IMG/VR virus record: IMGVR_UViG_3300013004_004504
Coordinates: 1-38,879 of that record
From: a virus
DNA: 38,879 bases
Strand: one strand, 5' to 3'
The position numbers and the translations under genes are program-made. Below are positions 1 through 38,879 of the stretch, piece by piece. Under the pieces are notes generated by a model, which worked only from the letters and a program-made list of their open reading frames with translations, had not been told where the DNA came from and did no database searches. The first letter of the stretch is position 1. The number at the start of each line of letters is the position of its first letter.

Positions 1-1
1 C

Positions 2-934: not shown

Positions 935-3900
935 TGGATACCTCGAAGCTCAAGCCCTTTGCCCAAGACGCACGCAGAATTCTGAAAGCGCAGGTGTCAG
1001 CGCGGCTGGATCAGGTGTTGGCGGAGCAAAGCGCGGCCCGGCGCGAGCAGCCCAAGGCTGTTTCTGAGCTAGAAACGGAAATAGCCAAGAGCGCTCGGGA
1101 GCAGGTGATCGAGAAGGTCGCATACACCTGGTTCAATCGCTTCACCGCGCTAAGGTTCATGGATGCCAACGACTACACGCGGATCAAGGTGGTTTCTCCG
1201 GCCGAAGGACAAACACGCCCTGAGACACTCGCTGAAGCTGCTGCAGGAAACATTGATGAGGACGCTCCTGCAGATGTGAGAAACAAGGTTGCGGCCCTGC
1301 TGGATGGTCGCACACCATCACGTGATCCCCAGGGAGAGGCCTACCGTCTGCTGCTGGTCGCGGCCTGTAACCAATGGCATGCAACCATGCCCTTCATGTT
1401 CGAGAAAATCGCGGACTACACCGAACTGTTGATGCCGGAGGATCTGCTGTCGGCTGATAGCATCCTTGCGAAAGCTCGGGCCGTGATGACGGAAGAGGCC
1501 TGCCAGGACGTCGAGGTCATCGGCTGGCTCTACCAGTTCTACATCTCGGAAAAGAAGGACGAGGTTTTCGCCGGGCTAAAGAAGAACAAGAAGATCACAG
1601 CGGAAAACATTCCGGCGGCAACTCAGCTTTTTACCCCGCACTGGATCGTGCGTTATCTGGTGGAGAATTCGCTGGGGCGGCTGTGGCTGCTGAACCGCCC
1701 GAACTCAAAGCTGCCGTCCATGATGGACTATTACATAGCGCCGGAAGTGCCAGAAACCGATTTCCTGCGCATCTCCCGGCCAGAGGACATCCGCATCTGC
1801 GATCCGGCCTGCGGGTCAGGCCATATGCTGACCTATGCCTTTGATCTGCTATACGCGATCTATGAGGAAGAGGGATATGAAGCGACCGAAATCCCCGGAC
1901 TGATCCTGTCCAACAATCTGCATGGGATCGAGATCGATGACCGTGCGGGTGCGTTGGCTGCCTTTGCGCTTGCGATGAAGGTTGCGACTAAGCTCGGACG
2001 ACGCAGATTCCTTCGGCAGACTGTGCAGCCGAACATCTGCATAATGCAGGATGTATGTTTCTCCGCCTCCGAGATGCACGACGTTGCAGCCTTGGTGGGA
2101 CGCGATCTGTTCACCGCCGATTTTCGCGAGACCATGGGGCAGTTCGAGCAGGCCAAGAACTTCGGTTCGCTGATCGTGCCCAAGTTGCATAAGCCTGCCG
2201 AAGTGGCCCGTGTTGTACGCTTGATGGATTTCAGTGGCGACCTTCTGCGGCGCGAACTGCAGGAGCGAGTTCTGAAGGTGCTAGAGATGGCAGCGGCGCT
2301 CTCGCCGATTTACCATGTAGTAGTAGCTAACCCGCCGTATGCGGGAAGCAAAAACCTGAACTCATCGGTCTCCGTTTTTGCTAAGAAGCATTACCCAAAT
2401 AGTAAGACCGACTTATACACAATGTTTATGGAGCGCGGGCTTTCATTGATTATTGATTATGGCCTTATGGCTATGATTAATATGCAAACCTGGATGTTTT
2501 TATCAACATTTGAAAAGCTTCGTTTTGACTTGTTGAATAAATCAACAGTTGTTTCAATGGCTCATCTTGGGGAGCGAGCTTTTGACACAATTGGCGGAGC
2601 AGTTGTATCGACAACCGCTTTCATCCTAAAGAAGTCGGAAGATGTTGATCTTGAGGGGGTATTCGTCCGGCTTGTTTCTGGACAGAACGAAAAGCAGAAG
2701 TCCCATAGCCTTATGGCGGCGGTTAAATGTCCCGCGGATCCTAATCGATATAGTTCTACCACTCGAAAGTTGAAAGCTATACCCGGCCTGCCTTTGGCAT
2801 ATTGGCTGAGTGAAGAATTTTTGAATTTAATTTCAGCAAATAATAAAATGGGCGATGTTCTCGACTCTAAGCAAGGATTGGCAACGGCAAATAATGAAAG
2901 ATTTTTGCGGAGTTGGCACGAAGTCAATTTCAGAGGAATTGGAATTGGTTTGCATAGTTCTGCGGACGCCAAGATCACCGGCTTGCGCTGGTTTCCAGTA
3001 AATAAAGGTGGAGATTTCAGGAGATGGTATGGGAATCAAGATCTTGTAGTAAACTGGCAGAATGATGGCCAAGAAATTAGGGAATATGTAAATAAGCAAT
3101 ACCCATACCTCAATGGCAATATTGATTATGTTATCAAAGATCGAGGTAAATTTTTTGTGGAGAGCATAAGCTGGTCAGATGTAGCCAGTAAACGGAATGT
3201 TTTCCGATTTTATCCGCATGGATTTTTGTACGAAGCCAAGGGTCACTCAGCGTTCTATGGCGACCGCTCGCAGCGCGACGTTGCCTTGGCTTTCCTCAAT
3301 ACAAAAATCACTAACGAGATCGTGGCCGCCATTAGCCCCTCGGTTAGTTTCCACATTGGCTACTTTGATCGCTTGCCTTGGCCCAGTTTGGTCCCATGCG
3401 ATAAGGTCACTGCACAAACTACGCGATGTATCTCTCTCTCACAGCGAGACTGGGACGCCTACGAAACCTCCTGGAATTTTGCGACACTGCCGCTACTCTC
3501 GCCCGATTATCATGACCAGACGTTACAAGGGTCTTATGCCCGTCTCAGCATGCATTGGCGTGAGATAATCGATGAAATGCAACGGCTGGAAGAGCTGAAC
3601 AACGGCATATTCATTGAAGCCTACAACCTGCAGGGCGAGCTAACTCCTGATGTGCCGCTTGAGGAAATTTCCCTCACTTGCAACCCAGCCTATCGCTATG
3701 GCGGTAAATCAACCCCCGAAGAGTTAGAGGAGCGGTTACTAGCCGACACTATCGCCGAATTCCTTCACTATGCTGTGGGCTGCATGTTCGGACGCTATAG
3801 CCTTGATGCGCCGGGCCTGATCCTTGCCAATCAGGGAGAGGGGCTGGCCGAATACCTTGCTCGCGTCCCAGAGCCCTCATTCGAACCGGATGCCGACAAT

Positions 3901-4476
3901 GTCATCCCGATGCTGGAGGGCGACTGGTTTGCCGACGACATCGTGGAGCGTTTCCGCAAGTTCCTGCGTGTGACGTTTGGCGAGGCGAAGTTTCAGGAAA
4001 ATATGGCCTTCATTGAAAGCGCCTTGGGCAAGGACGTCCGCAAGTGGTTCACGCGCGATTTTTACGACTACCATGTCCGTCGCTATAAGAAGCGCCCCAT
4101 CTACTGGATGTTCTCCAGCCCCAAGGGTAGCTTCCAGGCGCTGATCTATATGCACCGTTACCAACCGGACACGGTCAGCGTGGTGCTGAACGATTATTTG
4201 CGTGAGTATCGCAATAAGCTAGAGGCGCATCGCAAGAGCCTAGAAGCGCTCAGCTCGAGCAGCGATGCCTTGCCTGCGCAGAAGGCAAAGGCCGAAAAGG
4301 AGATTGGCGAAGTTGCCAAGGTAATCGCCGAGCTCGATGCCTATGAGCGGGACGTGCTGTTCCCGCTCGCTACCCAGAAGGTCGAAATCGATCTGGATGA
4401 TGGCGTGAAGGCCAACTACCCGAAGTTTGGCGATGCCTTAAAGCCCATTAAAGGCCTCTCAGATGCGGATGACTGA
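934..4476 (+). CDS. pglX: PglX, BREX-1 adenine-specific DNA methyltransferase
   Basis: The 1180-residue protein has the usual length for type 1 PglX. The SAM-binding motif DPACGSG is at residues 290-296 and the catalytic NPPY motif at 466-469, the order of N6-adenine methyltransferases with a large C-terminal recognition region. By family knowledge, PglX methylates one strand of a short asymmetric site on host DNA, marking it as self and directing BREX against unmodified phage DNA. The ATG overlaps the brxC stop (TGATG), and pglZ starts two bases after its stop, so the genes are translationally linked. The stretch from roughly 2340 to 3240 (residues about 470-770) is much richer in A and T than either side, and lies just after NPPY, where target recognition is expected. 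The reading frame is intact, so the enzyme is probably functional. Confidence 0.95.
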   Translation: MDTSKLKPFAQDARRILKAQVSARLDQVLAEQSAARREQPKAVSELETEIAKSAREQVIEKVAYTWFNRFTALRFMDANDYTRIKVVSPAEGQTRPETLAEAAAGNIDEDAPADVRNKVAALLDGRTPSRDPQGEAYRLLLVAACNQWHATMPFMFEKIADYTELLMPEDLLSADSILAKARAVMTEEACQDVEVIGWLYQFYISEKKDEVFAGLKKNKKITAENIPAATQLFTPHWIVRYLVENSLGRLWLLNRPNSKLPSMMDYYIAPEVPETDFLRISRPEDIRICDPACGSGHMLTYAFDLLYAIYEEEGYEATEIPGLILSNNLHGIEIDDRAGALAAFALAMKVATKLGRRRFLRQTVQPNICIMQDVCFSASEMHDVAALVGRDLFTADFRETMGQFEQAKNFGSLIVPKLHKPAEVARVVRLMDFSGDLLRRELQERVLKVLEMAAALSPIYHVVVANPPYAGSKNLNSSVSVFAKKHYPNSKTDLYTMFMERGLSLIIDYGLMAMINMQTWMFLSTFEKLRFDLLNKSTVVSMAHLGERAFDTIGGAVVSTTAFILKKSEDVDLEGVFVRLVSGQNEKQKSHSLMAAVKCPADPNRYSSTTRKLKAIPGLPLAYWLSEEFLNLISANNKMGDVLDSKQGLATANNERFLRSWHEVNFRGIGIGLHSSADAKITGLRWFPVNKGGDFRRWYGNQDLVVNWQNDGQEIREYVNKQYPYLNGNIDYVIKDRGKFFVESISWSDVASKRNVFRFYPHGFLYEAKGHSAFYGDRSQRDVALAFLNTKITNEIVAAISPSVSFHIGYFDRLPWPSLVPCDKVTAQTTRCISLSQRDWDAYETSWNFATLPLLSPDYHDQTLQGSYARLSMHWREIIDEMQRLEELNNGIFIEAYNLQGELTPDVPLEEISLTCNPAYRYGGKSTPEELEERLLADTIAEFLHYAVGCMFGRYSLDAPGLILANQGEGLAEYLARVPEPSFEPDADNVIPMLEGDWFADDIVERFRKFLRVTFGEAKFQENMAFIESALGKDVRKWFTRDFYDYHVRRYKKRPIYWMFSSPKGSFQALIYMHRYQPDTVSVVLNDYLREYRNKLEAHRKSLEALSSSSDALPAQKAKAEKEIGEVAKVIAELDAYERDVLFPLATQKVEIDLDDGVKANYPKFGDALKPIKGLSDADD
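2340..3240 (+). other. AT-rich inserted or exchanged segment inside pglX (target-recognition region)
   Basis: Lines of sequence in this interval fall to about 33-48% G+C by eye, with runs such as ttgaatttaatttcagcaaa, while the flanking parts of the same gene are near 55% or more. The boundaries are approximate. The segment starts directly after the NPPY motif and ends before the conserved C-terminal half, which fits the part that reads the DNA target. The frame is uninterrupted. Inference: the specificity domain was replaced by recombination from a lower-GC donor. Confidence 0.7.
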
Positions 4477-4478
4477 CG

Positions 4479-6986
4479 ATGAATGATCGCATCTCAAAGG
4501 GCCTGACCGCCGCATTCGAAAGACACCGCGTCGTGTTCTGGACGGACTCGGCGCGCGAGCTCCGCGGTACTTTTGATAGCCTGGAGCTCCCAGGGATCGA
4601 AAAGCTTGTGCTCGAGAACAACGAATTCGGCGTGAAGCACAGGATCCTGCGGGGGCAGCCAGAGCAGCGCTTTCTTATATACAGAGAAGGAGCCGAGCCC
4701 GCGCATCTCGAAAACTGGCTGCTTGATATCCAGCTCGCCAACGGCGCATTCAAGGCCGACCAGGCGGCTCTGTGGCTGACCGAACTTGGTCTCGGCCTAG
4801 ATATGGAGGGCGCAGTTCGAGGGCACGAAGAATTTTTCCGATCCGCCCGCCGTGTAGAGCAGTTGAAATCGATGGCGCGAGGCGACGATCGGCTGGAAGT
4901 CATCAAGCTCAAGATGCTGTTGGTCTGCGCCAAAGCCGGTGCCGGTTCGGGCTTTGAGGAAATCATCGAACAGCTCCTGTCTGAACACGCAGAGAATGAC
5001 GATGAGACGATCCGACTGATAGAGCGGGTCAAGCTTGATGAGCTGCTTTGGCAACTTATCGGACGACATTTTGGCTATAATTCCGCCAGCCCCAGTGTGA
5101 GCGATTTCGCCATCACCCTTTTCAAGTCAGCCCATGCAGCTGGGCTGGGTGGCACGCCTCAACTTTCATCCGAAGCCTTGGTCTTCTTCAGGCGCTGGAA
5201 GAACAACCGCCACAACTCTATCGTGTTCGAGAAGCTGTCGGCCGCGTATGCGCAAGTCCTTCCAGTCCGGGACGATCTGGCCAGTCGAGACTTCCGCGAC
5301 CTGATGGAGCTCGATACGTTTGAGGATGTCGATCGAGCCATCATCGTTGCTCTGGTTCGAGGCGTGGCGTCCAAGACGCTATCTCACGGCGAAGTCGCGG
5401 TGTGGATCAGACAGCGCCGTCAGAGCCATTGGTTTGAGCGTTACCGGGACCTTTACGAGGCGGTTGGCTTCGCTGCAGAGTTCCAATTCGCGCTGTCCCA
5501 GGTGAACCTAGGTATGACCAGCCTTGAAGAGGGCATCAAACGCTACGCAAGCACATGGTTCCGCGTGGATCAGCTCTATCGCAAGTTCATTCATCGCATG
5601 CAGCGATCTGGGCAGGCGAGCCTGATGAGTGAGCTCTTCGAGCAGGTGGAGAACCATTACGTGAACAGCTACCTGCTCAGGCTCAATGACGCTTGGCAGG
5701 TTCATATAGATGGCGCGTCAAAGTGGGATGTGCCCGGGGTAGTCAGGCAGCGAGACTTCTACCAGACGCACGTTGGAGAGTTCCGGCGAAAGGGGCAGAA
5801 GATCTGCGTCATTATTTCAGACGCAATGCGATACGAAGTGGCCGACGAGCTTCTCGCAAGAGTTCGCGAGCTAGATAAATACGACGCCGAGCTCCAGCCT
5901 ATGCTCGGGTCGTTGCCGACCTACACGCAACTGGGCATGGCCTCACTCCTGCCGAACAAGGATCTGCAGATTGCAGATAACGAGACGAGTGCCGTGATAG
6001 TTGACGGACAGAGTTCGCTCGGGCTTGAGAACCGTAAGAAGATCTTGGCCAAGGGGCGGGAAGGGGACCGGACAACGGCGCTACCTGCCGATGAGCTTAT
6101 GTCCATGCCCAAAGACGATTGTCGGGCGCTGTTCCGTGATCATGACGTCATCTACGTCTACCACAATCTGATCGACGCAATTGGTGACAAGCCCGCGACT
6201 GAAGAGCGGGTATTCGAGGCTGCCGAGGACACGCTTGAGGCGCTCGTCCAACTGGTGAAGAAGCTGACGGCGGCAAATGCAAGCAGCCTGCTGATCACCT
6301 CGGACCACGGGTTTATCTACCAGCACCGCCCGATTGAAGAGAGCGACTTCTCGGGATCTGAGGTGGCCGGTGAGACCATTCTGTTCCGTAATCGTAGGTT
6401 TGTTCTGGGGCACGGACTCAAAGCCCAGCAGGGCCTGCGACATTACACTGCAGAAGCCGCGGGCCAGCAGGGAAATGTTGAAATCCTGATACCGAAGTCG
6501 ATAAACCGCCTTCGCCTGAAGGGTTCCGGCAGCCGGTTTGTGCACGGTGGCGCGACGCTCCAAGAAGCCATTGTGCCGGTTTTGAGGATCAACAAGAGCC
6601 GGCAAAGCGACACTTCTCATGTGGAAGTCGAGATCATTGCCAGCACGACGCAGGTCATTACCTCCGGCCAGATCTCGGTCCGTTTCTACCAGCAAGATGC
6701 AGTCACGGAGAAAAGCCGGTCCCGGCATCTACGGGCAGGGATCTACTCACAATCCGGCGAGCTGATCTCGGATAGCCACGATCTGGTGTTCGACTTCAGG
6801 TCGGAGAACCCGCGGGAGAGGGAACATCAGGTTCGTTTTCTGATGTCTCGTAAGGCCGACGAGTATAACGGGCAGGAGGTCATCCTGAAGCTCGAAGAGC
6901 AACACGGGGAAACCAGCCATTACCGAGAATATCGAAGCGCTCGCTATGTTCTGCGACGCAGCTTCACCAATGACTTTGACTTTTGA
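4479..6986 (+). CDS. pglZ: PglZ, BREX-1 alkaline-phosphatase-superfamily protein (type A)
   Basis: The 835-residue protein matches the length and N-terminal style of type A PglZ. The alkaline-phosphatase-like core is seen as IISDAMR (Asp448, predicted metal ligand) and ITSDHGFIY (Asp609, His610), with a helical N-terminal region of about 400 residues before it. PglZ is a core BREX component required for defence. It is a predicted metal-dependent phosphohydrolase or nuclease that works with PglX; its natural substrate is not established. It begins two bases after the pglX stop. The following brxL start at 6998 lies 11 bases beyond its TGA. Composition is even, with no sign of frameshift or truncation. 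Confidence 0.94.
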   Translation: MNDRISKGLTAAFERHRVVFWTDSARELRGTFDSLELPGIEKLVLENNEFGVKHRILRGQPEQRFLIYREGAEPAHLENWLLDIQLANGAFKADQAALWLTELGLGLDMEGAVRGHEEFFRSARRVEQLKSMARGDDRLEVIKLKMLLVCAKAGAGSGFEEIIEQLLSEHAENDDETIRLIERVKLDELLWQLIGRHFGYNSASPSVSDFAITLFKSAHAAGLGGTPQLSSEALVFFRRWKNNRHNSIVFEKLSAAYAQVLPVRDDLASRDFRDLMELDTFEDVDRAIIVALVRGVASKTLSHGEVAVWIRQRRQSHWFERYRDLYEAVGFAAEFQFALSQVNLGMTSLEEGIKRYASTWFRVDQLYRKFIHRMQRSGQASLMSELFEQVENHYVNSYLLRLNDAWQVHIDGASKWDVPGVVRQRDFYQTHVGEFRRKGQKICVIISDAMRYEVADELLARVRELDKYDAELQPMLGSLPTYTQLGMASLLPNKDLQIADNETSAVIVDGQSSLGLENRKKILAKGREGDRTTALPADELMSMPKDDCRALFRDHDVIYVYHNLIDAIGDKPATEERVFEAAEDTLEALVQLVKKLTAANASSLLITSDHGFIYQHRPIEESDFSGSEVAGETILFRNRRFVLGHGLKAQQGLRHYTAEAAGQQGNVEILIPKSINRLRLKGSGSRFVHGGATLQEAIVPVLRINKSRQSDTSHVEVEIIASTTQVITSGQISVRFYQQDAVTEKSRSRHLRAGIYSQSGELISDSHDLVFDFRSENPREREHQVRFLMSRKADEYNGQEVILKLEEQHGETSHYREYRSARYVLRRSFTNDFDF

Positions 6987-6997
6987 GGGGCCGTGGG

Positions 6998-9079
6998 ATG
7001 ACCGCACTGGACGACAAAATCAATGAACGCTTCCCAGGCCTTGTCGTGCGCAAGGATTTGGTCAAAGCGGTCAAGGGGAACGCCATCGTCCCCACCTATG
7101 TGCTTGAGTATCTGTTGGGGCAGTATTGCGCCACCAACGATGAAACGTCGATCCAGTCAGGGATCGAAACGGTACGCGAGATCCTGCGCAAGCATTACGT
7201 CCATCGCAATGAGGCTGGGCTGATCAAGTCCAACATCCGCGAGAAGGGACGCTGGAAGATCATTGATCGGATCAGCGTGGCCCTGAACGAGAAAAGCGAC
7301 ACCTACGAGGCGAGCTTTGCGAACCTCGGCATCTCGAAGGTTCTGATCGACTCCGGAACCGTCAAGGCGCACCCGAAGCTTCTGGTTGGAGGCGTGTGGT
7401 GCATTGCCGACATCGAATACGACTACACAGAGGACAAGAGCGTCACTCCCTGGATCCTGGGCACCATGAAGCCGATCCAGCTTTCCCACTTCGATTATGA
7501 GGCATATCTTGAGGCCCGAAAGGGTTTCTCGACAGACGAGTGGATTGATCTCCTTTTCCAGACAGTGGGCTTCGACCCGGAGATGTTTGGAAGGCGATCA
7601 AAGCTCATCCAGCTGATGCGCCTGATCCCGTTTGTGGAGCGCAATTACAACCTCATCGAGCTTGGACCTAAGGGAACCGGCAAATCGCACATCTTCTCGG
7701 AGTTCTCTCCGCACGGCATCCTCATCTCCGGTGGCGAAGTGACCGTGCCCAAACTGTTCGTGAGCAACAGCTCCGGCAAGCTCGGTCTTGTCGGTTATTG
7801 GGACGTGGTCGCGCTCGACGAATTTGCCGGCAAGCAAAAGAAGGTCGACAAGGCGCTGGTCGACATCCTTAAAAACTACATGGCTAACAAGACCTTCTCC
7901 CGTGGCGTCGAGCCATTGGGGGCAGAGGCCTCGATGGTCTTTGTCGGCAACACGAAACACACCGTCCCTTACATGCTCAAAAACACAGACCTGTTTGACG
8001 AGCTTCCTGACAAGTACTACGATTCCGCCTTCATCGACCGTCTTCATACCTACATCCCTGGCTGGGAGGTCGGCGTCATCCGCGGTGAGATGTTCTCAAG
8101 TGGATACGGCTTCGTTGTCGACTACCTTGCCGAAATCCTTCGCCATCTGAGAAATGACGATTATTCCGACCGATACCGGCCGCACTTTGATCTTTCTGCC
8201 GACATCTCAACGCGCGATCGAGACGGCGTTCATAAGACCTTCTCCGGCCTCATGAAGCTGCTTTACCCCTCCGGGGACGCTACGGCCGATGAAATGGAGG
8301 AGATCCTCAAGCTCGCGCTGGAAGGGCGCAAGCGGGTCAAAGATCAGCTGATGCGGATCGACACCACCTATCCTGAGGTGGACTTTTCATTCTCTCGCAA
8401 GAGCGGTGAGAAGGTTAGCGTTGCAACGCTCGAAGAGAGCGAATTTCCGGCATTTTATTATCGGCGAGCGGCAGAGCCTGCGGCCGCAACGCATGAGCCA
8501 GAAGCTACCAAGCCCCAAGCACCGTCATCCAATCAGAGTGTTGGGGAGGGGGGGCAGCCCGCTGTTACCGAACCAGTGGGGCCGCAAACTGGACATTTCA
8601 GCTACCATGAGAACCAGCGCGGCGTGACCTTCGATGCGCTGTTTGGTCCCTATCTCGTGGGCGCTCAGAAGATCACGATTACTGATCCCTACATTCGAGC
8701 GTTTCATCAAGTCCGCAATGTTATGGAGCTCATCGAAACGATCGCGAAAACCAAGTATCCGGCGGACGAGGTTGAGGTGCATCTGATCACATGTCTGGAC
8801 GGAATTCGACCGGAGAAGCAGGCTGAAAACCTAGCCGCGATTGCCGCATCTTGTGAGGGCGTCGGGATCAAATTCACGTGGGAGTTTGATGAAACAAACA
8901 CCATTCATGCCCGCCATATCGTTACGGATACTGGCTGGAAAATTGCCTTAGATCGAGGCCTCGACATCTTCCAGCAATATGAGTTGAACGACGCCTTTAG
9001 CTTTGCCAACCGGCTCCAGCAGTTCCGGTCTGTCAAAGCCTTTGAGGTGATCTACCTAAAGACCCCTAAGGTTGATTGA
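6998..9079 (+). CDS. brxL: BrxL-type AAA+ ATPase with a C-terminal MIT_C-like domain instead of Lon protease
   Basis: The ATG at 6998 is preceded by a GAGGGG ribosome site at 6985-6990; a TTG at 6983 in frame is less likely. The 693-residue protein has the BrxL N-terminal region (residues about 1-200) and an AAA+ core with Walker A GPKGTGKS at 223-230 and Walker B around Asp274-Glu275. A Pro/Ala/Gln-rich linker follows (about 495-540). Known BrxL proteins form DNA-binding rings and end in a Lon-like protease domain. Here the last about 150 residues instead carry DPYIRAFHQ (from Asp563), HLITCLDGI, and GWKIALDRGLDIFQQYE. This is the pattern I know from the PLD-like C-terminal domain of MITD1 (PF16565), and no Ser-Lys protease region is recognisable. 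The gene ends just before the ATG of the GIY-YIG gene, so it is part of the same operon. Confidence 0.9.
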   Translation: MTALDDKINERFPGLVVRKDLVKAVKGNAIVPTYVLEYLLGQYCATNDETSIQSGIETVREILRKHYVHRNEAGLIKSNIREKGRWKIIDRISVALNEKSDTYEASFANLGISKVLIDSGTVKAHPKLLVGGVWCIADIEYDYTEDKSVTPWILGTMKPIQLSHFDYEAYLEARKGFSTDEWIDLLFQTVGFDPEMFGRRSKLIQLMRLIPFVERNYNLIELGPKGTGKSHIFSEFSPHGILISGGEVTVPKLFVSNSSGKLGLVGYWDVVALDEFAGKQKKVDKALVDILKNYMANKTFSRGVEPLGAEASMVFVGNTKHTVPYMLKNTDLFDELPDKYYDSAFIDRLHTYIPGWEVGVIRGEMFSSGYGFVVDYLAEILRHLRNDDYSDRYRPHFDLSADISTRDRDGVHKTFSGLMKLLYPSGDATADEMEEILKLALEGRKRVKDQLMRIDTTYPEVDFSFSRKSGEKVSVATLEESEFPAFYYRRAAEPAAATHEPEATKPQAPSSNQSVGEGGQPAVTEPVGPQTGHFSYHENQRGVTFDALFGPYLVGAQKITITDPYIRAFHQVRNVMELIETIAKTKYPADEVEVHLITCLDGIRPEKQAENLAAIAASCEGVGIKFTWEFDETNTIHARHIVTDTGWKIALDRGLDIFQQYELNDAFSFANRLQQFRSVKAFEVIYLKTPKVD

Positions 9080-9080
9080 T

Positions 9081-10028
9081 ATGCGCCCGCGCTCAATCAA
9101 CATCTTTCTGCTCGACGGGGATCCGGATGGCATACGTGTAGCCCAGATTTCGATGTCCACAATCCAGGCGATCGCTTTCCGCAAACTGCAGATGAAGCAG
9201 GTGCGTGGGACATTTCCTGAATTGGCCCGACCGGGCGTTTACCTCCTGCTTGGCTTCGATGAAGCGCAGCCGGATCGTCTCATGGCTTATATCGGTGAAT
9301 CCGAAGGCGTGGCCAATCGACTGCAGTATCATGCCGGTAATGATAAGGGCGTAGATAGCAAACCGTTCTGGACTGAGACGATTGTGTTGGTCAGCAAGGA
9401 TGAGAACCTTACCAAATCCCACGCCCGATATGTTGAAGCCAGACTGATCGCAGATGCAGGGCTCAACCCACGTTGGTCGCTGCTGAACTCCCAGAAGGCA
9501 AGCGAGGTCGGCAAACTGCCGCTACCGGATCGGGCCGCGATGGAAGAGTTCATCGACCAGACGAAGACATTGGTTGGTGCACTTGGCTGCGATTTGTTCA
9601 AAGTCGTCTCAGGTGACCTCACAAATGGTGGCAGGTTGGAAATCAAAGGTGCGATCGACGTTCCCAATGTTGTTTTTGCATATCGAGGCCAAGGTTTCGC
9701 CGCTCAAATGTTGATCACTGCCAGCAGCGAGTTCGTGGTGAAGAGGGGATCTGTCGCCCGGATCAAAACGACTAATACCATCCCCAAGGGGACTGTAGGC
9801 TTGCGCTCCGATTTGCTCGCCAAGGGTATTCTGGTGGAACAGAATGACGGCCTTCTGTTCACCTCCGACTACATATTTTCGTCGGTTTCCGCAGCCGCAG
9901 CCACGGTAACAGGGGCGGCGGCAAATGGCAGAATTCTCTGGCGATTACCGGATGGTAGAACCTATGCGGAGTGGGAGGAGGCAGAAAACAGCGTCCCGCC
10001 ATCTGATGGCGCAGACTACGACGCATAG
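9081..10028 (+). CDS. GIY-YIG nuclease with C-terminal DUF4357-like domain (BREX-associated)
   Basis: The start is taken as ATG 9081, one base after the brxL stop; TTG 9072 is the alternative. The 315-residue protein has a GIY-YIG domain at about residues 45-140: GVY (52-54), YIG (70-72), an Arg in ANRLQYHAG, and a candidate metal-binding Glu119 in YVEARLI. The C-terminal about 120 residues, with LRSDLL..GIL and a final GR.YAEWEEAE, fit DUF4357, a small domain often attached to restriction or GIY-YIG proteins. GIY-YIG enzymes cut DNA with one metal ion. Its place at the end of the BREX operon suggests an effector or accessory restriction nuclease, but that role is inferred. Its last 13 bases overlap the 3' end of the opposing sulfotransferase gene. 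Confidence 0.85.
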   Translation: MRPRSINIFLLDGDPDGIRVAQISMSTIQAIAFRKLQMKQVRGTFPELARPGVYLLLGFDEAQPDRLMAYIGESEGVANRLQYHAGNDKGVDSKPFWTETIVLVSKDENLTKSHARYVEARLIADAGLNPRWSLLNSQKASEVGKLPLPDRAAMEEFIDQTKTLVGALGCDLFKVVSGDLTNGGRLEIKGAIDVPNVVFAYRGQGFAAQMLITASSEFVVKRGSVARIKTTNTIPKGTVGLRSDLLAKGILVEQNDGLLFTSDYIFSSVSAAAATVTGAAANGRILWRLPDGRTYAEWEEAENSVPPSDGADYDA

Positions 10029-32355: not shown

Positions 32356-32806
32356 TTTCTTCCGGCGGCTCGGCCGAGATCCTGCTCCTTGCACTGGGCG
32401 TCATCCCGAATTCTGCGGCGTAACGCATCATGTCCGCCGCCGCCTTGTTGGCAGTTCCCACCAGCGGGTTCTGGATCGCGTTGCCGTTCGATGTCTTGAT
32501 CATGAGGCCGCCGGTCAGCTGGTCCTTCTCGGCCATCTTGGCGATGGCCCGTTCGGCCTGGACCCAGCGTCCATAGGCCATGGCGTAGGCAGCAAGTGCC
32601 GCCCGGTCGATCTCGGACAAGATGCCGAGGTTGAAGAGCTCGGTTGCCACCCGGTTCCATTCCTCGACCGCATCGGAGGTGAGGTGGGCTGGCGGCGCTG
32701 GTATTGCAGCCTTGGTCTTGGCCTCTTTGCGGTTGACCTTTCGCTTACCCGGATTGGAGGTCACAAGCTTGAGCTGCGTAGGCTTCGGCTTTCTGCCGGT
32801 AATCAT
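32324..32806 (-). CDS. terminase small subunit, P27 family
   Basis: The 160-residue protein opens with a Lys-rich MITGRKPKPTQLKLVTSNPG, then KRKVNRKEAKT, and continues with IPAPPAHLTSDAVEEWNRVA and DRAALAAYAMAYGRWVQAER. These are the signature of P27-type small terminases. It recognises phage DNA and recruits TerL. It overlaps TerL at its end and the methyltransferase stop at its start (ATGA), so the three are co-translated. Confidence 0.92.
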   Translation of the reverse strand: MITGRKPKPTQLKLVTSNPGKRKVNRKEAKTKAAIPAPPAHLTSDAVEEWNRVATELFNLGILSEIDRAALAAYAMAYGRWVQAERAIAKMAEKDQLTGGLMIKTSNGNAIQNPLVGTANKAAADMMRYAAEFGMTPSARSRISAEPPEESGDPADRFFA

Positions 32807-34056
32807 GCGGCCTCAGCTATTCTCCCGCCTGCAATTTCGTCGAAAGTCCGGCCGTCCCCTTCAAGGGTCGCAGCCTGGCCGGTGAAATCCTGCCAGCGCT
32901 TCACGGCCACATCGATGTAAGCGGGATTAAGCTCGATGGCGTGGATGGCGCGGCCGGTCATCTCACCGGCGATGATAGTGGTGCCCGAGCCAGAGAAAGG
33001 CTCGTAGACAGCCTGGCCCGGGCTGGAATTGTTCTCGATCGGGCGCTTCATGCACTCGACCGGCTTTTGGGTGCCGTGGCCGGTTTCGTTCTTCTTGGGC
33101 TTGGCGATGTGCCAAACGGTGGTCTGCTTGCGGTCACCGGCCCAGTGACCTTTGGCCCCCTTCTTCACGGCATACCAGCAGGGCTCATGTTCCCAGTGGT
33201 AATCGCCTCGTGAAAGGACAAGCTGGCCCTTGTCCCAGATGATCTGGGAACGCAGGTGGAAATCGCAGGCAGCGAGACTGTCGCCGACAACACCGGCAAA
33301 CAGACCTGCATGCCAAACGTAGGCAACATCGCCTGGGAACAGTGCCCACGCGTCGCGCCAGTCGGCCTTGTCATCGTTCAACACCTTGCCCTTGGCTGAG
33401 CCCGAGGCGGCAACGCCAGCTTTCTCGCGCCAGCCTGGATCATACTCTACGCCGTAAGGAGGATCGGTGACCATCAGGTGGGGTGAAACGCCGTTCAGCG
33501 CCTTGGCGACGGCTTCGGCATCGGTGCTGTCGCCGCAGACCAGCCGGTGCTTGCCGAGCAGCCAGACATCGCCGGATTTGGTGATGGGCTCGATCGGCGC
33601 TTCCGGAATTGCGTCGGGGTCGGTCAGGCCATCGGTCTTCTCGGTCAGCAGCTTTGACAACTCGTCGGCCGAGAACCCGGTCAGCATCAGGTCGAAATCG
33701 AAACCCTGCAGATCGCCCAGTTCGACGGCCAGCAGTTCAAGGTCCCAGCCAGCATTCAACGCCAGCTTATTGTCGGCGATGACGTAGGCCTTCTTCTGGG
33801 CCTCGCTCCAGCCCTTGGCGACCATGGTCGGTATCTGCGTCAGCCCCAGCTTGCGCGCAGCAAGCAGACGTCCATGGCCAGCAATCAGCCCGCCATCTTC
33901 ATCAACGAGGATCGGATTGGTCCAGCCCCATTCACGGATTGAGGCAGCGATCTGCGCAACCTGTTCATCCGAGTGCGTGCGGGAGTTGCGCGCATAGGGC
34001 GTGATCTTCTCTATCGGCCAGAACTCACTGCTCTGGGCCGGCCAGTTCTGATCCAT
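32803..34056 (-). CDS. ParB-like domain fused to DNA methyltransferase (N6/N4 type)
   Basis: The 417-residue protein has an N-terminal ParB/Srx-like domain at about 10-75 (KITPYARNSRTHSDEQVAQI, then GGLIAGHGRLLAARKLG). The methyltransferase follows, with the catalytic DPPY at 198-201 before the SAM motif FSGSG at 354-358, the beta-class order. A Cys/Trp-rich middle (YHWEHEPCWYAVKKGAKGHW) is typical. Such phage enzymes methylate adenine or cytosine in short sites, which could evade restriction or BREX, or tune packaging. AAGGA precedes the start, and the stop overlaps the TerS ATG. The target sequence cannot be read from sequence. Confidence 0.9.
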   Translation of the reverse strand: MDQNWPAQSSEFWPIEKITPYARNSRTHSDEQVAQIAASIREWGWTNPILVDEDGGLIAGHGRLLAARKLGLTQIPTMVAKGWSEAQKKAYVIADNKLALNAGWDLELLAVELGDLQGFDFDLMLTGFSADELSKLLTEKTDGLTDPDAIPEAPIEPITKSGDVWLLGKHRLVCGDSTDAEAVAKALNGVSPHLMVTDPPYGVEYDPGWREKAGVAASGSAKGKVLNDDKADWRDAWALFPGDVAYVWHAGLFAGVVGDSLAACDFHLRSQIIWDKGQLVLSRGDYHWEHEPCWYAVKKGAKGHWAGDRKQTTVWHIAKPKKNETGHGTQKPVECMKRPIENNSSPGQAVYEPFSGSGTTIIAGEMTGRAIHAIELNPAYIDVAVKRWQDFTGQAATLEGDGRTFDEIAGGRIAEAA

Positions 34057-34740: not shown

Positions 34741-34964
34741 TTGTATCGCTCCGTTTCCGTGAAGCGACTACCGCTCTTGTCGCGACGACTATCCAGTCAA
34801 TTCGACGAAATTCTGCGACTTTCTGCTTTCTGACCCCCGGTCGCCAACTCGCGGTTACGTGAATTTTGGACCATGCGCGGTTTCCGTCCCGCAGGCCCCA
34901 GAGTTTCGACCCGCCCCCCGGTTTTCGCTTTCGGCCGAATGTGTCTAAATGGGCGGAGAGGTGG
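34741..34964. promoter_or_regulatory. divergent intergenic region, probable promoters
   Basis: These 224 bases separate the leftward operon start (34740) from the rightward 62-residue gene, so promoters for both directions are expected here. No convincing -35/-10 pair was found. On the - strand a TTGACT lies at about 34796-34801 without a good -10 at the right spacing. No ORF with a ribosome site is seen inside. Confidence 0.4.
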
Positions 34965-35153
34965 ATGATGGCGGATATTCAGAAGGAATTGGCGCTTCGG
35001 TTGGCCTGGTACATTGATCGCTATGGCGAGATACCTGAGCGCGATATGATCAAACTTTGGGGCGCGGCGACACTAGGACGCAAAGATGACGAGGCTGAGC
35101 GGATCACTGCCTTGGCTGACGATGTCCTCGAGTATTTCCGATCGATGGATTAA
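34965..35153 (+). CDS. small hypothetical protein, 62 aa, on the opposite strand
   Basis: Two adjacent ATGs (34965, 34968) follow GGAGAGG. The protein is acidic and helical (DIQKELALRLAWYIDRYGEI, then DDEAERITALADDVLEYFRS), with no family recognised. Its TAA overlaps the TAA of the convergent HNH gene within the four bases TTAA. It runs against the phage late genes, which hints at a regulator or a prophage-expressed accessory gene. Confidence 0.6.
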   Translation: MMADIQKELALRLAWYIDRYGEIPERDMIKLWGAATLGRKDDEAERITALADDVLEYFRSMD

Positions 35154-35425
35154 CCGGCTCTCCCGATCGGCCACCCGTCAGGGTCCACTTCAACCGTCCT
35201 GCGATGACCGAACTGCTCGGCCGTGCGTGCCTGGTGGCAGTCAGCGCAGAGGCAGCGGATGTTGCTGTCATCGTCCGAGCCACCCAAGGTGAGCGGCACG
35301 ATATGGTCAGGCACGGTGGCTGCGCGAACGATGCCCTTGGCAGCGCAGTTCTTACAGACTGGTTCAGCCTGAAGGCGACGCAAACGCTGGATGACCGCGC
35401 GGCGCCCACGCATTCTTGTAGTCAT
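35150..35425 (-). CDS. HNH endonuclease
   Basis: The protein has CKNC and CLCADCH zinc-binding pairs around the core DHIVPLTLGGSDDDSN, the HNH layout. With ATG 35425 it is 91 residues; an upstream in-frame start at 35578 would run into the DUF3800 gene and gives unlikely sequence. HNH enzymes next to terminase genes are often needed for cos-type cutting in HK97-like phages. Here the gene is several genes upstream of TerS, so that role is inferred. No good ribosome site is visible. Confidence 0.85.
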   Translation of the reverse strand: MTTRMRGRRAVIQRLRRLQAEPVCKNCAAKGIVRAATVPDHIVPLTLGGSDDDSNIRCLCADCHQARTAEQFGHRRTVEVDPDGWPIGRAG

Positions 35426-35480
35426 TTGGCGTTCGGGTAAAAAGCGTTGGACATCAAAGCGGCCGAGCCTTGGAGGGATT

Positions 35481-36293
35481 ATGATTTCGGATGAGTTCCA
35501 GCAGGCAGTGAAGGCGGGCGTGTATGGCTTACTTATCGACGATACCGGTTCGCCGGGAGTACAGGCAAATAATCCCAACCTGCCAAAAGAAACGAAATCG
35601 TTGGTTGGTGTGCTTGTTCCACCACACGCGATGCCGGTTATTGCGGATCAATTACCAGGTGTTATTGATGAAATCCGAAGCATAACAGGCGCCAACGAAA
35701 TGCATTTCGTTGACATATATGGTGCACGTAAAAATTGGAAAGGCGTCGATCCAAAAGTCAGGCTGGGAATTTTCGGGTTCATGTCTTGGATTTTCGATAC
35801 ATACGGTCTTAAACTGATTGTTCAGAGTTTCACGGCTGCGCAGCACCAAGATGTTATTAGTAGGCTTGGCATCGATAATGCCGGTCCATTCGACCTTAAG
35901 AAGATCGAAGATGCAGCCCTATTGTTTCTGCTTATTCAAGCAAAATGGCATCTCAAAAGTCTGAGTCATGCGCCTGGGGCTAAGGCTGGTGTTTTTATAG
36001 ATGCCGGGAACGGATGGAAGAGATCCGATAGCAAGCATCAGGTTAATATTTTTAGTGATGTATTTATGAACGGCGAATTTGGTTTTTATGATTCAGCAAA
36101 AATGCCGCCCATACAAATTGCGGACTTTGCCGCATTCTTTCACAATCGAGTTAACCTCATTATAAATAAGGTTTCACCAGAACTATTTGACCGCCAATTG
36201 GTCGAAATTCTTCAACCTCTGCAAACTGGGTATTTAAATATACCAACCCTGTCCTGGGACGTAATTTTCCCGGAATTTCCGTCATATCAATAG
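35481..36293 (+). CDS. DUF3800 family protein, putative RNase H-like nuclease
   Basis: GGAGGG precedes ATG 35481 and gives 270 residues. The DUF3800 pattern is visible: LLIDDTGSPG (Asp20/21), EMHF (Glu73, His75), VFIDAGNGW (Asp174), and PPIQIADFAAFFHNR (Asp215). Together they form a likely metal site of an RNase H-like fold. The substrate is unknown; members occur in phages, plasmids and defence regions. The gene is more AT-rich than its neighbours and is transcribed opposite to the late operon. This suggests a cargo gene acquired separately (a moron). Start choice is secure because of the ribosome site. Confidence 0.85.
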   Translation: MISDEFQQAVKAGVYGLLIDDTGSPGVQANNPNLPKETKSLVGVLVPPHAMPVIADQLPGVIDEIRSITGANEMHFVDIYGARKNWKGVDPKVRLGIFGFMSWIFDTYGLKLIVQSFTAAQHQDVISRLGIDNAGPFDLKKIEDAALLFLLIQAKWHLKSLSHAPGAKAGVFIDAGNGWKRSDSKHQVNIFSDVFMNGEFGFYDSAKMPPIQIADFAAFFHNRVNLIINKVSPELFDRQLVEILQPLQTGYLNIPTLSWDVIFPEFPSYQ

Positions 36294-36317
36294 CGTGGCT
36301 TATTCAAAATCGAACAA

Positions 36318-36344
36318 CGCCCGGAAGCTGGTTGGCTCCGGGCG
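36318..36344. terminator. possible bidirectional hairpin between converging genes
   Basis: CGCCCGG and CCGGGCG pair across AGC-TGGTTG-GCT with a one-base bulge. The hairpin lies 25 bases after the DUF3800 stop and before the end of the opposite gene at 36420. No T-tract follows on either side, so a termination role is uncertain. Confidence 0.35.
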
Positions 36345-36419
36345 CAGTTCTCAATCCTCGATTTCGGAACAATGCCGAAGAACGTCCATAAAAACAAGGG
36401 AATCGGCCAGTTTTAGGCG

Positions 36420-37016
36420 TTATGTCAGCACTTTGCGGTTACTATCCCGCGCCATGCCGAACAGTTCTGCCAGCGCATCAAGGGCAAAGCTGAGGTTGGT
36501 GCGATCGGCCTGCGGCCAGCCACCCGCATCCTCATCTATGCAGACGAGCCGATAGGCGAGCACGCCGGGTGCCTTGCCCGGTGCGTCCTGTCGATCCCGG
36601 TCGCACTGGCCGAGCACATCGAGCACGGCGCCGTAGTGCCGCTGCACCTTCTCGACCAGAGTCCGGCTGGGAGGTGCGCCCACGCCGCCGAGCACGCCGT
36701 CGCTGGCCAGGATGCCTGTAACTGAAGCGGGGAACGGCATCGGCCAGCCCATCACCGCATGATGCCGGTGATAGATCTCGGCGTACTTCTGCCCAGCAGC
36801 AAACTGCTCAGCGTCGATCACACCACAAAACGCCAACCGCCCCAGCGCCGTGCCCAGCCGTTCGTCACGGGCCTGCCTGGCGGTCACCCCGTAATGGCGC
36901 TGACGTGCTTCCAGCACGGTGGCTATGACCTCACGCTGGGTTTCGCCAGCTCTGGGCTGCACCAGCTTGCCACAAGGGTGGCGCTTGCCGGCTTTGCGCT
37001 TACGCCCTTTTGCCAT
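36420..37016 (-). CDS. hypothetical phage protein, 198 aa, basic N-terminus
   Basis: A GGAGG site precedes ATG 37016. The N-terminus is strongly basic (AKGRKRKAGKRHPCGKLVQP), suggesting nucleic-acid contact. Helical segments follow (REVIATVLEARQRHYGVTAR, then a YAEIYHRHHAVMG stretch and LVEKVQRHYGAVLDVLGQCD). I do not recognise a family. It is the last gene of the early-type cluster before the DUF3800 region and could be a late regulator, but this is only a guess from place and charge. The start overlaps the end of the 62-residue gene. Confidence 0.65.
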   Translation of the reverse strand: MAKGRKRKAGKRHPCGKLVQPRAGETQREVIATVLEARQRHYGVTARQARDERLGTALGRLAFCGVIDAEQFAAGQKYAEIYHRHHAVMGWPMPFPASVTGILASDGVLGGVGAPPSRTLVEKVQRHYGAVLDVLGQCDRDRQDAPGKAPGVLAYRLVCIDEDAGGWPQADRTNLSFALDALAELFGMARDSNRKVLT

Positions 37017-37188
37017 GGGTGCCTCCGTAGAGCCGTTCGCCGATCGAACGGACGAGTTCCCGCTCCGTTTGGCTCAAGCGCTGGTCACTGACCGAGACGG
37101 CAAGGATGCCGCTTCGCCAGCCGTCGCGTTTGAGTTCTTCGCCGTCACGCTGCCGTGCGCTGTCGTAGATCCGGGAGGTAACGCTCAT
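37000..37188 (-). CDS. small hypothetical phage protein, 62 aa
   Basis: The protein (IYDSARQRDGEELKRDGWRS, then SDQRLSQTERELVRSIGERL) is charged and helical. Its ATG overlaps the stop of the DUF6378 gene (ATGA) and its end overlaps the next gene by 17 bases, so it is translated in the same chain. No function can be assigned. Confidence 0.58.
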   Translation of the reverse strand: MSVTSRIYDSARQRDGEELKRDGWRSGILAVSVSDQRLSQTERELVRSIGERLYGGTHGKRA

Positions 37189-37442
37189 GTGCGGATCTCC
37201 CTCAGCAGGGCGGCATAGCCGATGACATCAATCACGCTGTCGACGTGCCCGGGATCGTAGGCTAGCCGGACCAGCTTCAGGTCGATCATGCACAGCGCGA
37301 CCTGTGCCGGGGTCACCGGCATACCGAGCGTGATCGACCAGCGAGCAGCGATCGATTTGAACTGATCAGCGGGATCACCGTAATCGTCGCGCCGTTCCTC
37401 CAAAACCTTGGCCGTATGGCCGAGAATGGACCAGCTGGTCAT
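37185..37442 (-). CDS. DUF6378 / MazG-like nucleotide pyrophosphohydrolase-type protein
   Basis: The 85-residue protein has the family's R-x-x-YG and FKSIAARWS block near the start (EERRDDYGDPADQFKSIAAR), then CMIDLKLVRLAYDPGHVDSV and the closing DVIGYAALL. This is an all-alpha NTP pyrophosphatase-like fold. It may clean nucleotides during phage replication; that role is inferred. It is linked by ATGA overlaps to the RuvC-like gene and the 62-residue gene. Confidence 0.8.
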   Translation of the reverse strand: MTSWSILGHTAKVLEERRDDYGDPADQFKSIAARWSITLGMPVTPAQVALCMIDLKLVRLAYDPGHVDSVIDVIGYAALLREIRT

Positions 37443-37975
37443 CGCACACCCCCGCGGGTCTCGATGGCCCAGATCAGGATGGCGATCGCATCGGCCTCGT
37501 TGTCATCGGCGGGTGCAAAGCCTTTCGCCTGGACGGCGGCGATGACAGCGGCCTTGTCGGCATTGCCCTTGCCGGTGATGAACTGCTTGATCGTGCCAAC
37601 CGGCACACCTTGGTAGGCAACCAGATGCTCTTCGCACCAGGCGCTCAGGACAGCGAGAAGGCCGCCGTAGACATGGGCCGCATCGGTTCCGACGTGGCGC
37701 CGCACTTCCTCGAAGTGGATCGCCTCGATCGGTCCAGCATCGAGGTCGAGCTGTTCCAGCCAGCGGCGGAAGCGCAGGAAGCGCATCCCGCCGCCATCGA
37801 AGCGGGTGTGCTTGAACGACACTGTGCCGCTCGAGATGAAGTCATCGCCCGTCTGCAGCGCCCAGCCTGTGCTGGTGCCGAGGTCGAGAGCCAGCATAGC
37901 TCCGGTTGTAATCGTCTGCCGGGAGGCCGGCGGGGTTGCCCTGCGCGCTGGCACAGGCAAAGTCAGAACATCCAT
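37439..37975 (-). CDS. RuvC-like Holliday junction resolvase
   Basis: The 178-residue protein has the RuvC-fold acidic residues in place: Asp31 in MLALDLGTSTGWAL, Glu89/Glu90 in AIHFEEVRRHVG and acidic residues in DDNEADAIAI (Asp157-Asp162), with a GTIKQFITGKGNADKAAVI stretch. RuvC-type phage resolvases trim branched DNA before packaging or during recombination. It heads a chain of overlapping early-type genes. No mutated catalytic residue is seen. Confidence 0.85.
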   Translation of the reverse strand: MDVLTLPVPARRATPPASRQTITTGAMLALDLGTSTGWALQTGDDFISSGTVSFKHTRFDGGGMRFLRFRRWLEQLDLDAGPIEAIHFEEVRRHVGTDAAHVYGGLLAVLSAWCEEHLVAYQGVPVGTIKQFITGKGNADKAAVIAAVQAKGFAPADDNEADAIAILIWAIETRGGVR

Positions 37976-38092
37976 GATTGTTCTCCTGAAAATGGAATCG
38001 GTCGTGGTGAGGACGGCGGCAGCCTGGTGCTTGGCGGTACTGGCTGCCGTCGTCCGATCTGGGCTGGTGGGTTCACGTCATCGGCTGCTCCA

Positions 38093-38635
38093 TCAGAACG
38101 GGATATCTGAGAGCTCGTCATTGAGCTGATCGAGCGCGGCGCGACTGGGACGGACGCTCACCACCTGTGCGTCCGGGAACGCGTTTTTGGCGGCGGCCAG
38201 GATCGGATGGCAGCGGATGACGTTGGCGATCTCATCGAGCGACCAGACCTGAGCTTGACGGCCGTGACGCTGGGCCCGTCCGGTATCGCGCAGGTCCCGC
38301 ACCAGGATGACGAGGCCTTGCTCCGTCTCGAACTCCCACTGGTCGACCGGCAGCGTTTCGCCCTTGGCTTCCCGGGCAAGCTGGTCGAGCTTGTCATAGG
38401 CCCGCAGCATGGCATCGCCGTGCTGGCGAACGAGCTTGAGGTCGAACTCCCACACCGCAGCGTTGAACAGCTTATGCTGGGCATGGAACCGTTCAGCCCA
38501 CTCGATCGGCACAAGCATGGGCAGACGCCCGATGCCCCAATGCTGGTCCAGTTCCCGGCCGCGCTGGTCGACGCAGTTGATGATGACCTGGATGTCGCTG
38601 ATCTGACCATGCCGGGTCGGTGGCGCGCCCTTCAT
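38093..38635 (-). CDS. hypothetical phage early protein, 180 aa
   Basis: The protein contains GRELDQHWGIGRLPMLVPIE, AAVWEFDLKLVRQHGDAMLR and WSLDEIANVIRCHPILAAAK, and ends in an acidic tail. It is soluble and helix-rich, with no recognised domain. A 117-base gap with no ORF lies before the RuvC-like gene. Its ATG overlaps the stop of the small upstream gene (ATGA), so it belongs to the same early operon. Function is unknown. Confidence 0.65.
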   Translation of the reverse strand: MKGAPPTRHGQISDIQVIINCVDQRGRELDQHWGIGRLPMLVPIEWAERFHAQHKLFNAAVWEFDLKLVRQHGDAMLRAYDKLDQLAREAKGETLPVDQWEFETEQGLVILVRDLRDTGRAQRHGRQAQVWSLDEIANVIRCHPILAAAKNAFPDAQVVSVRPSRAALDQLNDELSDIPF

Positions 38636-38832
38636 GCGCCCCTCCTTTCTTTGTTAAAAACGAGGCTGACGATGCGCCTGAAGCGCAGTCGGAAGCCCTT
38701 AGGGGGTATGGGGGGGAAGCGACTGCGCGTTCCGACAGCTTCCGACCGTGCTTCCGCCGCCTTCCGACTGGCTTCCGACTGACGCAAAACCGTGCTTCCG
38801 ACTGCTTCCGACAACTGGATTTTAGGGCTCAT
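38632..38832 (-). CDS. small hypothetical protein, 66 aa, overlapping a repeat cluster
   Basis: GGAG lies 9 bases before the ATG, and the gene overlaps the upstream partial gene (ATGA) and the next gene (ATGA), which supports translation. The protein is short and basic (KAAEARSEAVGTRSRFPPIP, then PKGFRLRFRRIVSLVF). Its first half is encoded by the TTCCGAC repeats, so its amino-acid sequence may be incidental to a DNA function. Confidence 0.5.
   Translation of the reverse strand: MSPKIQLSEAVGSTVLRQSEASRKAAEARSEAVGTRSRFPPIPPKGFRLRFRRIVSLVFNKERRGA
38683..38728. repeat. 9-bp inverted repeat beside the TTCCGAC cluster
   Basis: GCGCAGTCG (38683-38691) is the exact reverse complement of CGACTGCGC (38720-38728), with a 28-base G-rich spacer. 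The left arm continues into GAAGC, so it also carries an inverted copy of GCTTCCGACTG. It may be part of the same protein-binding region. Confidence 0.55.
38730..38812 (+). repeat. cluster of seven TTCCGAC direct repeats, helical spacing
   Basis: Copies start at 38730, 38740, 38752 (TTCCGCC), 38762, 38773, 38796 and 38806. Spacings are 10, 12, 10, 11, 23 and 10 bases, close to one (or two) turns of DNA. Several are extended to GCTTCCGACTG. The copies fall in all three codon phases, so protein coding does not explain them. They look like iterons or protein-binding boxes. Confidence 0.75.
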
Positions 38833-38879
38833 CGGTCGGGCTCCAGGTACTTCACAACCCTGAGACCAGAGGCCTTGCC
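38829..38879 (-). CDS. C-terminal end of an upstream gene, cut by window end
   Basis: Reading from the window end, 16 codons (ending GLRVVKYLEPDR) lead to a TGA at 38829 that overlaps the next ATG (ATGA). The other overlaps in this strand follow the same form, so it is probably the real end of an early gene. It is too short to identify. Confidence 0.45.
   Translation of the reverse strand, partial: GKASGLRVVKYLEPDR

Follow-up and report, generated by a model that had tools for sequence, protein, structure and literature searches.

Results and discussion

Sequence and position of the repeat array

The locus described here raises the question of why a seven-letter word is repeated at short, regular distances between two genes of a virus and which protein, if any, recognizes it. 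The window, that is, the whole stretch of DNA that was analysed, is an entire IMG/VR record of 38,879 bases, and this record ends beside the array. Terminase (TerL), portal and capsid genes are present in the window, and the element is a tailed phage. The array occupies positions 38688-38812 and consists of the word GTCGGAA on the minus strand, with six exact copies, one near copy and one inverted copy. Iterons 1 to 4 are found at 38806-38812, 38796-38802, 38773-38779 and 38762-38768. Iteron 5 is a variant, GGCGGAA (38752-38758, TTCCGCC on the plus strand at 38752), with one mismatch, and reads GTCGGAA in some relatives. Iterons 6 and 7 follow at 38740-38746 and 38730-38736, all seven being on the minus strand, so that exact plus-strand copies of TTCCGAC begin at 38730, 38740, 38762, 38773, 38796 and 38806. 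The inverted iteron has GTCGGAA on the plus strand (38688-38694), and between it and the direct iterons lies a C-run/TA/G-run core (38696-38716, minus strand CCCCCCCATACCCCCTAAGGG), in which the G-run of the window is only 3 long. On the minus strand the order is thus the end of a helicase gene, the seven GTCGGAA-like words, the core, the inverted word, AAGGAGGGG, which resembles a ribosome-binding site, and the start of a 180-aa gene. The distance from the helicase stop to the start of the array is at most 20 nt.

The initial annotation had described seven copies of TTCCGAC, spaced by 10-12 bases and once by 23, in all three frames of a 66-codon gene. The array is real, and the count of seven is correct if the imperfect TTCCGCC is included. 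The spacings were also as described: in the consensus of 24 aligned rows they are 10, 23, 11, 10, 12 and 10, and the codon phases are 2, 0, 2, 1, 2, 2 and 0. The word was counted seven times, both strands taken together, in the first 200 bp after the helicase stop, and 2000 dinucleotide shuffles gave at most three copies, which rules out a chance origin of the array. Among 774 sliding 200-bp intervals of the whole sequence, only two, both overlapping the array, held any 7-mer in at least five copies. The total for the word in the window was 15 against 5.8 expected, with seven of these inside the array and the remainder near the level expected by chance.

A 9-bp inverted repeat holding a reversed copy of the word had also been reported. 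The repeat exists (38683-38691 and 38720-38728) and the inverted iteron is conserved, but the 9-bp repeat itself was missing from 11 of 27 distinct rows in an alignment judged by eye. It was rejected as a functional part because it is not conserved. No clear AT-rich unwinding element was found in the array region of the window.

Genes adjoining the array

A replication initiator was sought nearby, as the initial annotation had proposed, and a primase-helicase with a CHC2 Zn finger, a Toprim domain and an AAA_25 domain was found to adjoin the array, just past the window edge. The window holds just the 16 final codons of its gene and the stop codon (38829-38879, minus strand; translation GKASGLRVVKYLEPDR), and the remainder lies beyond the edge. 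The terminal residues of the relatives' helicases are identical to those at the window edge. Wherever a locus was long enough, the gene upstream of the array encoded a primase-helicase of about 700 aa, and Pfam assigned Zn_ribbon_DnaG, Toprim_3 and AAA_25 to the three helicases tested. Close relatives of the helicase were found in Novosphingobium sp. ST904, where the gene belongs to a prophage (L177), an Erythrobacteraceae MAG and Sphingomonadaceae/Sphingomonadales MAGs, and remoter ones in a Hyphomicrobiales MAG, an alphaproteobacterial MAG and Micromonospora rubida. In genome searches, a match at E 1e-40 was present in 5 of 396 and 3 of 385 genomes.

The helicase tail, modelled alone, is predicted to form a winged helix (mean pLDDT 81.6). 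The structural neighbours of this model were the winged-helix protein SAMD1 with DNA (Z 8.1, 71 residues, rmsd 2.7), LexA (Z 7.5) and proteins of the DtxR and MarR types (Z about 6); Foldseek returned no match for the tail model below E 0.001. A 345-aa helicase model had low quality in the ATPase portion (mean pLDDT 58.2), and its matches to DnaB, T7 gp4 and KaiC (Z about 8) carry little weight.

On the other side of the array, directly behind the putative origin, is the conserved 180-aa gene, whose function is unassigned (38093-38635, minus strand). Its protein has relatives with 82-95% identity in 31 viral loci, 11 of which were aligned. A DNA similarity search with positions 34800-38879 against named phages gave matches only over a resolvase-like gene.

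Conservation of the array in close relatives

In 25 of the 31 relatives, the interval from the helicase stop to the 180-aa gene holds at least four copies of GTCGGAA. Two others (L126 and L141) have the identical layout with the word TGCGGAA, and their inverted copy is altered too; in these two and in L183 the inverted iteron has become TTCCGCA on the sense strand alongside the direct copies. Three of the 31 loci (L122, L127 and L152) carry a different repeat array, and L133 offers 160 nt of upstream sequence only, in which no array was seen. These four were left out of the alignment of the array, which has 27 distinct rows. Across 24 distinct rows, 6 of 49 iteron columns were variable compared to 16 of 34 spacer columns.

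A search that allowed up to two mismatches recovered the pair unit of the array from 8 of 8 records, one of them a 6.3-Mb Novosphingobium genome. In each record the matches lay within 100 bp of one another, and dispersal of the motif over the host genome was rejected on this basis. A second cluster was found in none of the eight records, in a search that covered the pair-unit word only and viral records that may be fragments.

Replacement of the array together with the helicase C-terminal half

Comparison of two related viruses (L127 and L131) showed how the array changes. Identity between them was 89% for a 267-aa exonuclease-like protein, 78% for a 221-aa protein, 75% for the primase half of the primase-helicase and 93% for the 180-aa protein. 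The helicase ATPase half was 24% identical, and the array DNA had no similarity at that place except for a 14-base scrap; L127 carries repeats of its own. L123 has a different helicase, with candidate repeats of that helicase's own type (TTTGGCGCA/CGCGCCA, 3 copies) directly behind it and, after these, the old GTCGGAA/GTCGCAA array, which is intact. The candidate repeats of L123 were not significant when taken alone (p 0.106), and relatives of its helicase type (L205, L208 and L223) have TGCGCCA in 5-8 copies. As judged from these sequences, related viruses exchange the repeat and the C-terminal half of the helicase as a unit while the flanking genes stay.

The relation between the word and the helicase tail was also examined in 26 family-I helicases. 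In 125 same-word pairs with less than 84% identity in the ATPase part, mean identity was 78.6% for the ATPase and 85.2% for the tail, with a minimum of 76.5 for the tail. In 48 different-word pairs the means were 82.1% for the ATPase and 55.8% for the tail. The tail therefore changes faster where the word changes. Besides the module swaps, this covariation rests on one event, because the change from GTCGGAA to TGCGGAA belongs to one lineage (L126, L141 and L183). Some tail residues differ strictly between the two word types; among them, positions 62 and 66 of the tail model, in the predicted recognition helix, are K/E in 8 of 8 GTCGGAA rows and A/L in 2 of 2 TGCGGAA rows.

The region L123:3249-3640 is of separate note as a recombinant phage sequence with two stacked origin-like repeat regions.

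Survey of AAA_25 primase-helicases

A wider survey covered 79 helicases with adequate downstream sequence, forming 39 clusters at 80% identity. The copies of any 7-mer on either strand were counted over the 250 bp that follow the helicase stop and in 733 control intervals from the same loci. A 7-mer with at least four copies was found in 24 of 39 clusters compared to 14 of 733 controls, and one with at least five copies in 17 of 39 compared to 4 of 733. The cluster count omits three fragments (L184, L202 and L224), four loci that repeat earlier places (L188-L191) and one second weak match (L192), and the nine phage records in the survey were picked among 40 of 787 matching records and are not a random sample. 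The remaining 15 clusters had fewer than four copies, and no array was found behind the helicase in the clusters L206, L226, L227, L233, L238 and L198; the helicase family is therefore not always array-bearing. Two control intervals were outliers with seven copies each in 250 bp, ACGTTCA at L233:1251-1500 and CGGGTCC at L187:10001-10250.

The words differed among lineages. Rhizobium phage RHph_N65 has GCGGAGA 12 times, EBPR siphovirus 5 has CTTCCGC nine times, Alteromonas phage XX1924 has TGAACCA eight times and L194 has CGGGACA eight times. A CGGA core is common to the words of six family-I lineages, and the words of other lineages occur in both orientations and with differing sequence. A core of the form C4+ N0-10 G4+ was present within these 250 bp in 16 of 39 clusters compared to 27 of 733 controls, and the words flank the core on both sides in some distant relatives. 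C-run/TA/G-run palindromes were also seen behind the helicase in L197, L198 and L235, even without a strong iteron array. In three distant relatives (L185, L186 and L230) the iterons are interspersed with two copies of an AT-rich element like AAGTCATTGAAATCATTG, which is possibly an unwinding element and has no counterpart in the window. The GC skew of Rhizobium phage RHph_N65 had its extremes at 24.3 and 46.0 kb, off the array at 34.9 kb, a point against an origin there.

A putative replication origin

The initial annotation had offered two readings, a replication origin or an operator, and our findings support the origin. On comparative sequence grounds, the array most likely provides the initiator-binding sites of the phage replication origin, recognized by the winged helix of the adjoining helicase, which would load the helicase there. 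From the position of the array and its exchange with the helicase, we infer binding, unwinding, origin activity and a place of opening as follows. The GTCGGAA iterons are probably bound by the winged helix of the Zn-finger/Toprim/AAA_25 (RecA-fold) protein, whose gene lies directly upstream. Since the iterons are about one helical turn apart, several copies of the protein would line up along a single face of the double helix. The helicase might then be loaded and open the DNA, either near the C-run/G-run core or in the short T-rich stretch that separates iterons 2 and 3, before synthesis is started by the primase domain.

Several known systems have a comparable arrangement. The C-terminal domain of SaPI Rep is described as recognizing iterons directly downstream of its own gene, and the SaPI-type Rep helicases are placed in DUF927 or Primase_Cterm/D5-like groups (PMC7581432). 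Gram-negative PICIs have the same layout, which is claimed for no other known bacterial replicon (PMC6092414). The pri-rep-ori region of SaPIs and PICIs is like the present locus in having short iterons directly 3' of a helicase-initiator gene, with the origin here being a putative one. It differs in that the AT-rich region of PICIs lies between two sets of iterons, whereas the window has seven direct copies, a C-run/G-run core and one inverted copy. The helicase also differs, being here an AAA_25 protein with Zn_ribbon_DnaG and Toprim_3 by Pfam. SaPIs and PICIs are satellites without a full capsid and packaging set of their own, in contrast to the present element, which as a tailed phage carries genes for terminase, portal and capsid.

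P4 alpha combines a Toprim primase, a helicase and a C-terminal winged helix that binds repeats (PMC4234260). The protein described here would likewise hold a Toprim primase, a helicase and a predicted C-terminal winged helix in one chain. P4 is a satellite that also requires a second site, crr, away from its origin, and its helicase is of another class. ORF904 of pRN1 has a C-terminal winged helix and an origin downstream of its own gene (PMC4234260). It is, like the protein described here, a multidomain primase-helicase ending in a winged helix, and its origin directly follows the gene, as would the putative origin of the window, but pRN1 has a long stem-loop, no iterons and an archaeal-type primase. 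The present locus appears to work like SaPIs/PICIs, P4 and pRN1, and we do not class it as a member of any of these groups because the helicase class, the core and the host element differ. The origin of lambda has its iterons within the initiator gene O, a translated sequence of the replication operon, whereas the iterons here are in a separate, poorly conserved reading frame behind the helicase gene. Iteron plasmid origins of the P1, RK2 and R6K type differ as well, with repeats of about 20 bp beside a Rep initiator, compared to a 7-9 bp word with a 10-12 bp period adjoining a primase-helicase.

In the literature that we covered, which took in a minority of the subscription papers, we found neither this array nor any iterons downstream of an AAA_25 primase-helicase gene of a tailed phage described; this is weak evidence of absence. 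The arrangement of a helicase with iterons directly downstream would now extend to tailed phages, with another helicase class and a word of its own for each lineage. The paired winged helices and DNA words would form a natural series for reading origin specificity. Prediction of phage origins could also be made simple by inspecting the sequence right behind the AAA_25 primase-helicase gene.

Alternative functions of the array

Another possible explanation is an operator, at which a repressor or the helicase itself would bind to control transcription of the downstream early genes. Phased repeats fit cooperative binding by any regulator, and an S24-type repressor gene is present in the same early region of L131. 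However, this gene is about 4 kb off, at the opposite end of the operon. A promoter/terminator scan, limited to sigma-70, found no promoter-like site in 38000-38879 and nothing at the array, and in the swaps the array accompanies the helicase C-terminal half. An operator is thus disfavoured, since the array is mid-operon without a promoter-like site, and we regard this part of the initial annotation as improbable.

The repeats could also merely reflect a small repetitive protein gene. A 66-codon open reading frame does run across the array (38632-38832, minus strand), with its ATG overlapping the helicase stop (ATGA) and its TGA overlapping the next start (ATGA), and 26 of 27 distinct rows keep it open, compared to 0 and 3 of 27 for the other two frames. 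The sequence changes do not look like those of a protein gene, however. Variable columns at codon positions 1, 2 and 3 numbered 11, 12 and 12 of 43 (24 rows), and there is therefore no third-position excess; mean dN was 0.092 compared to a mean dS of 0.132 in the same rows, and the iterons occupy all codon phases. In the TGCGGAA relatives the array is read in another frame and the peptide is unrelated, and the peptide also changes where the alignment shows offsetting indels. Neither Pfam nor PHROG gave a match for the 66-codon frame. The protein-repeat reading was rejected on the codon-position, dN/dS and phase evidence, and there is very little chance that the array is a by-product of coding. 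As the initial annotation had anticipated, relatives share the DNA pattern and not a protein pattern, and the opposite outcome, a protein kept while its repeats vary synonymously, was not observed in them.

An RNA function, in which the transcribed repeats would bind a protein or fold into a leader ahead of the 180-aa gene, seems about equally remote. Direct and inverted copies could pair in the transcript, but no Rfam family scored above its gathering threshold in 37900-38879, the words of other lineages have different sequences in both orientations, and the 180-aa gene remains 82-95% identical regardless of the array that precedes it. Host-factor, partition, packaging or recombination sites also use short repeated words, but the position of the array is tied to the helicase gene and different words stand beside nearly identical neighbouring genes, which makes a common host factor unlikely and this the least credible reading.

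The open frame across the array

The 66-codon gene of the initial annotation is not a conserved protein gene, but an open frame does seem to be maintained. A start codon overlapping the helicase stop was found in 23 of 39 clusters. The frame was open for at least 180 nt in 17 of these 23, compared to 1 of the 16 clusters without the overlapping start, and each of the other frames was open for this length in 3 of 39. The stop of the frame overlaps the next gene start in 10 of 23 clusters. In L123 the frame stays open for 939 nt, crosses both repeat regions and enters the 180-aa gene in frame. This locus, which has three copies, was counted as an array locus because relatives of its helicase carry 5-8 copies. 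The pattern is suggestive only, because ordinary small genes could produce it, overlapping starts are common in phage operons and the loci are related.

The 66-codon frame is perhaps a translated bridge across the putative origin, joining the helicase and the next gene in most relatives. A broader proposal, which we would put forward as tentative and rather less probable than its opposite, is that these origins lie within a translated bridge, a frame running from the helicase stop through the iterons to or near the next start, whose openness is selected while the peptide is free to vary. Tail, word and bridge would then make up a portable module for replication that has reached many tailed phages, with the word diverging together with the winged helix. 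Since the frame runs through the iterons, ribosomes would cross the putative origin. If the open frame is selected, this would be an unusual solution for an origin inside an operon.

Other features of the window

Positions 1-10028 (plus strand) hold BREX defence genes, namely the end of BrxC, PglX, PglZ, BrxL and a PDC-S14/DUF4357 gene. They directly abut the phage late genes and are either host flank or phage cargo. Near the packaging genes, at 32803-34056 (minus strand), is a gene for a DNA methylase (N6_N4_Mtase) with an N-terminal ParB_N domain.
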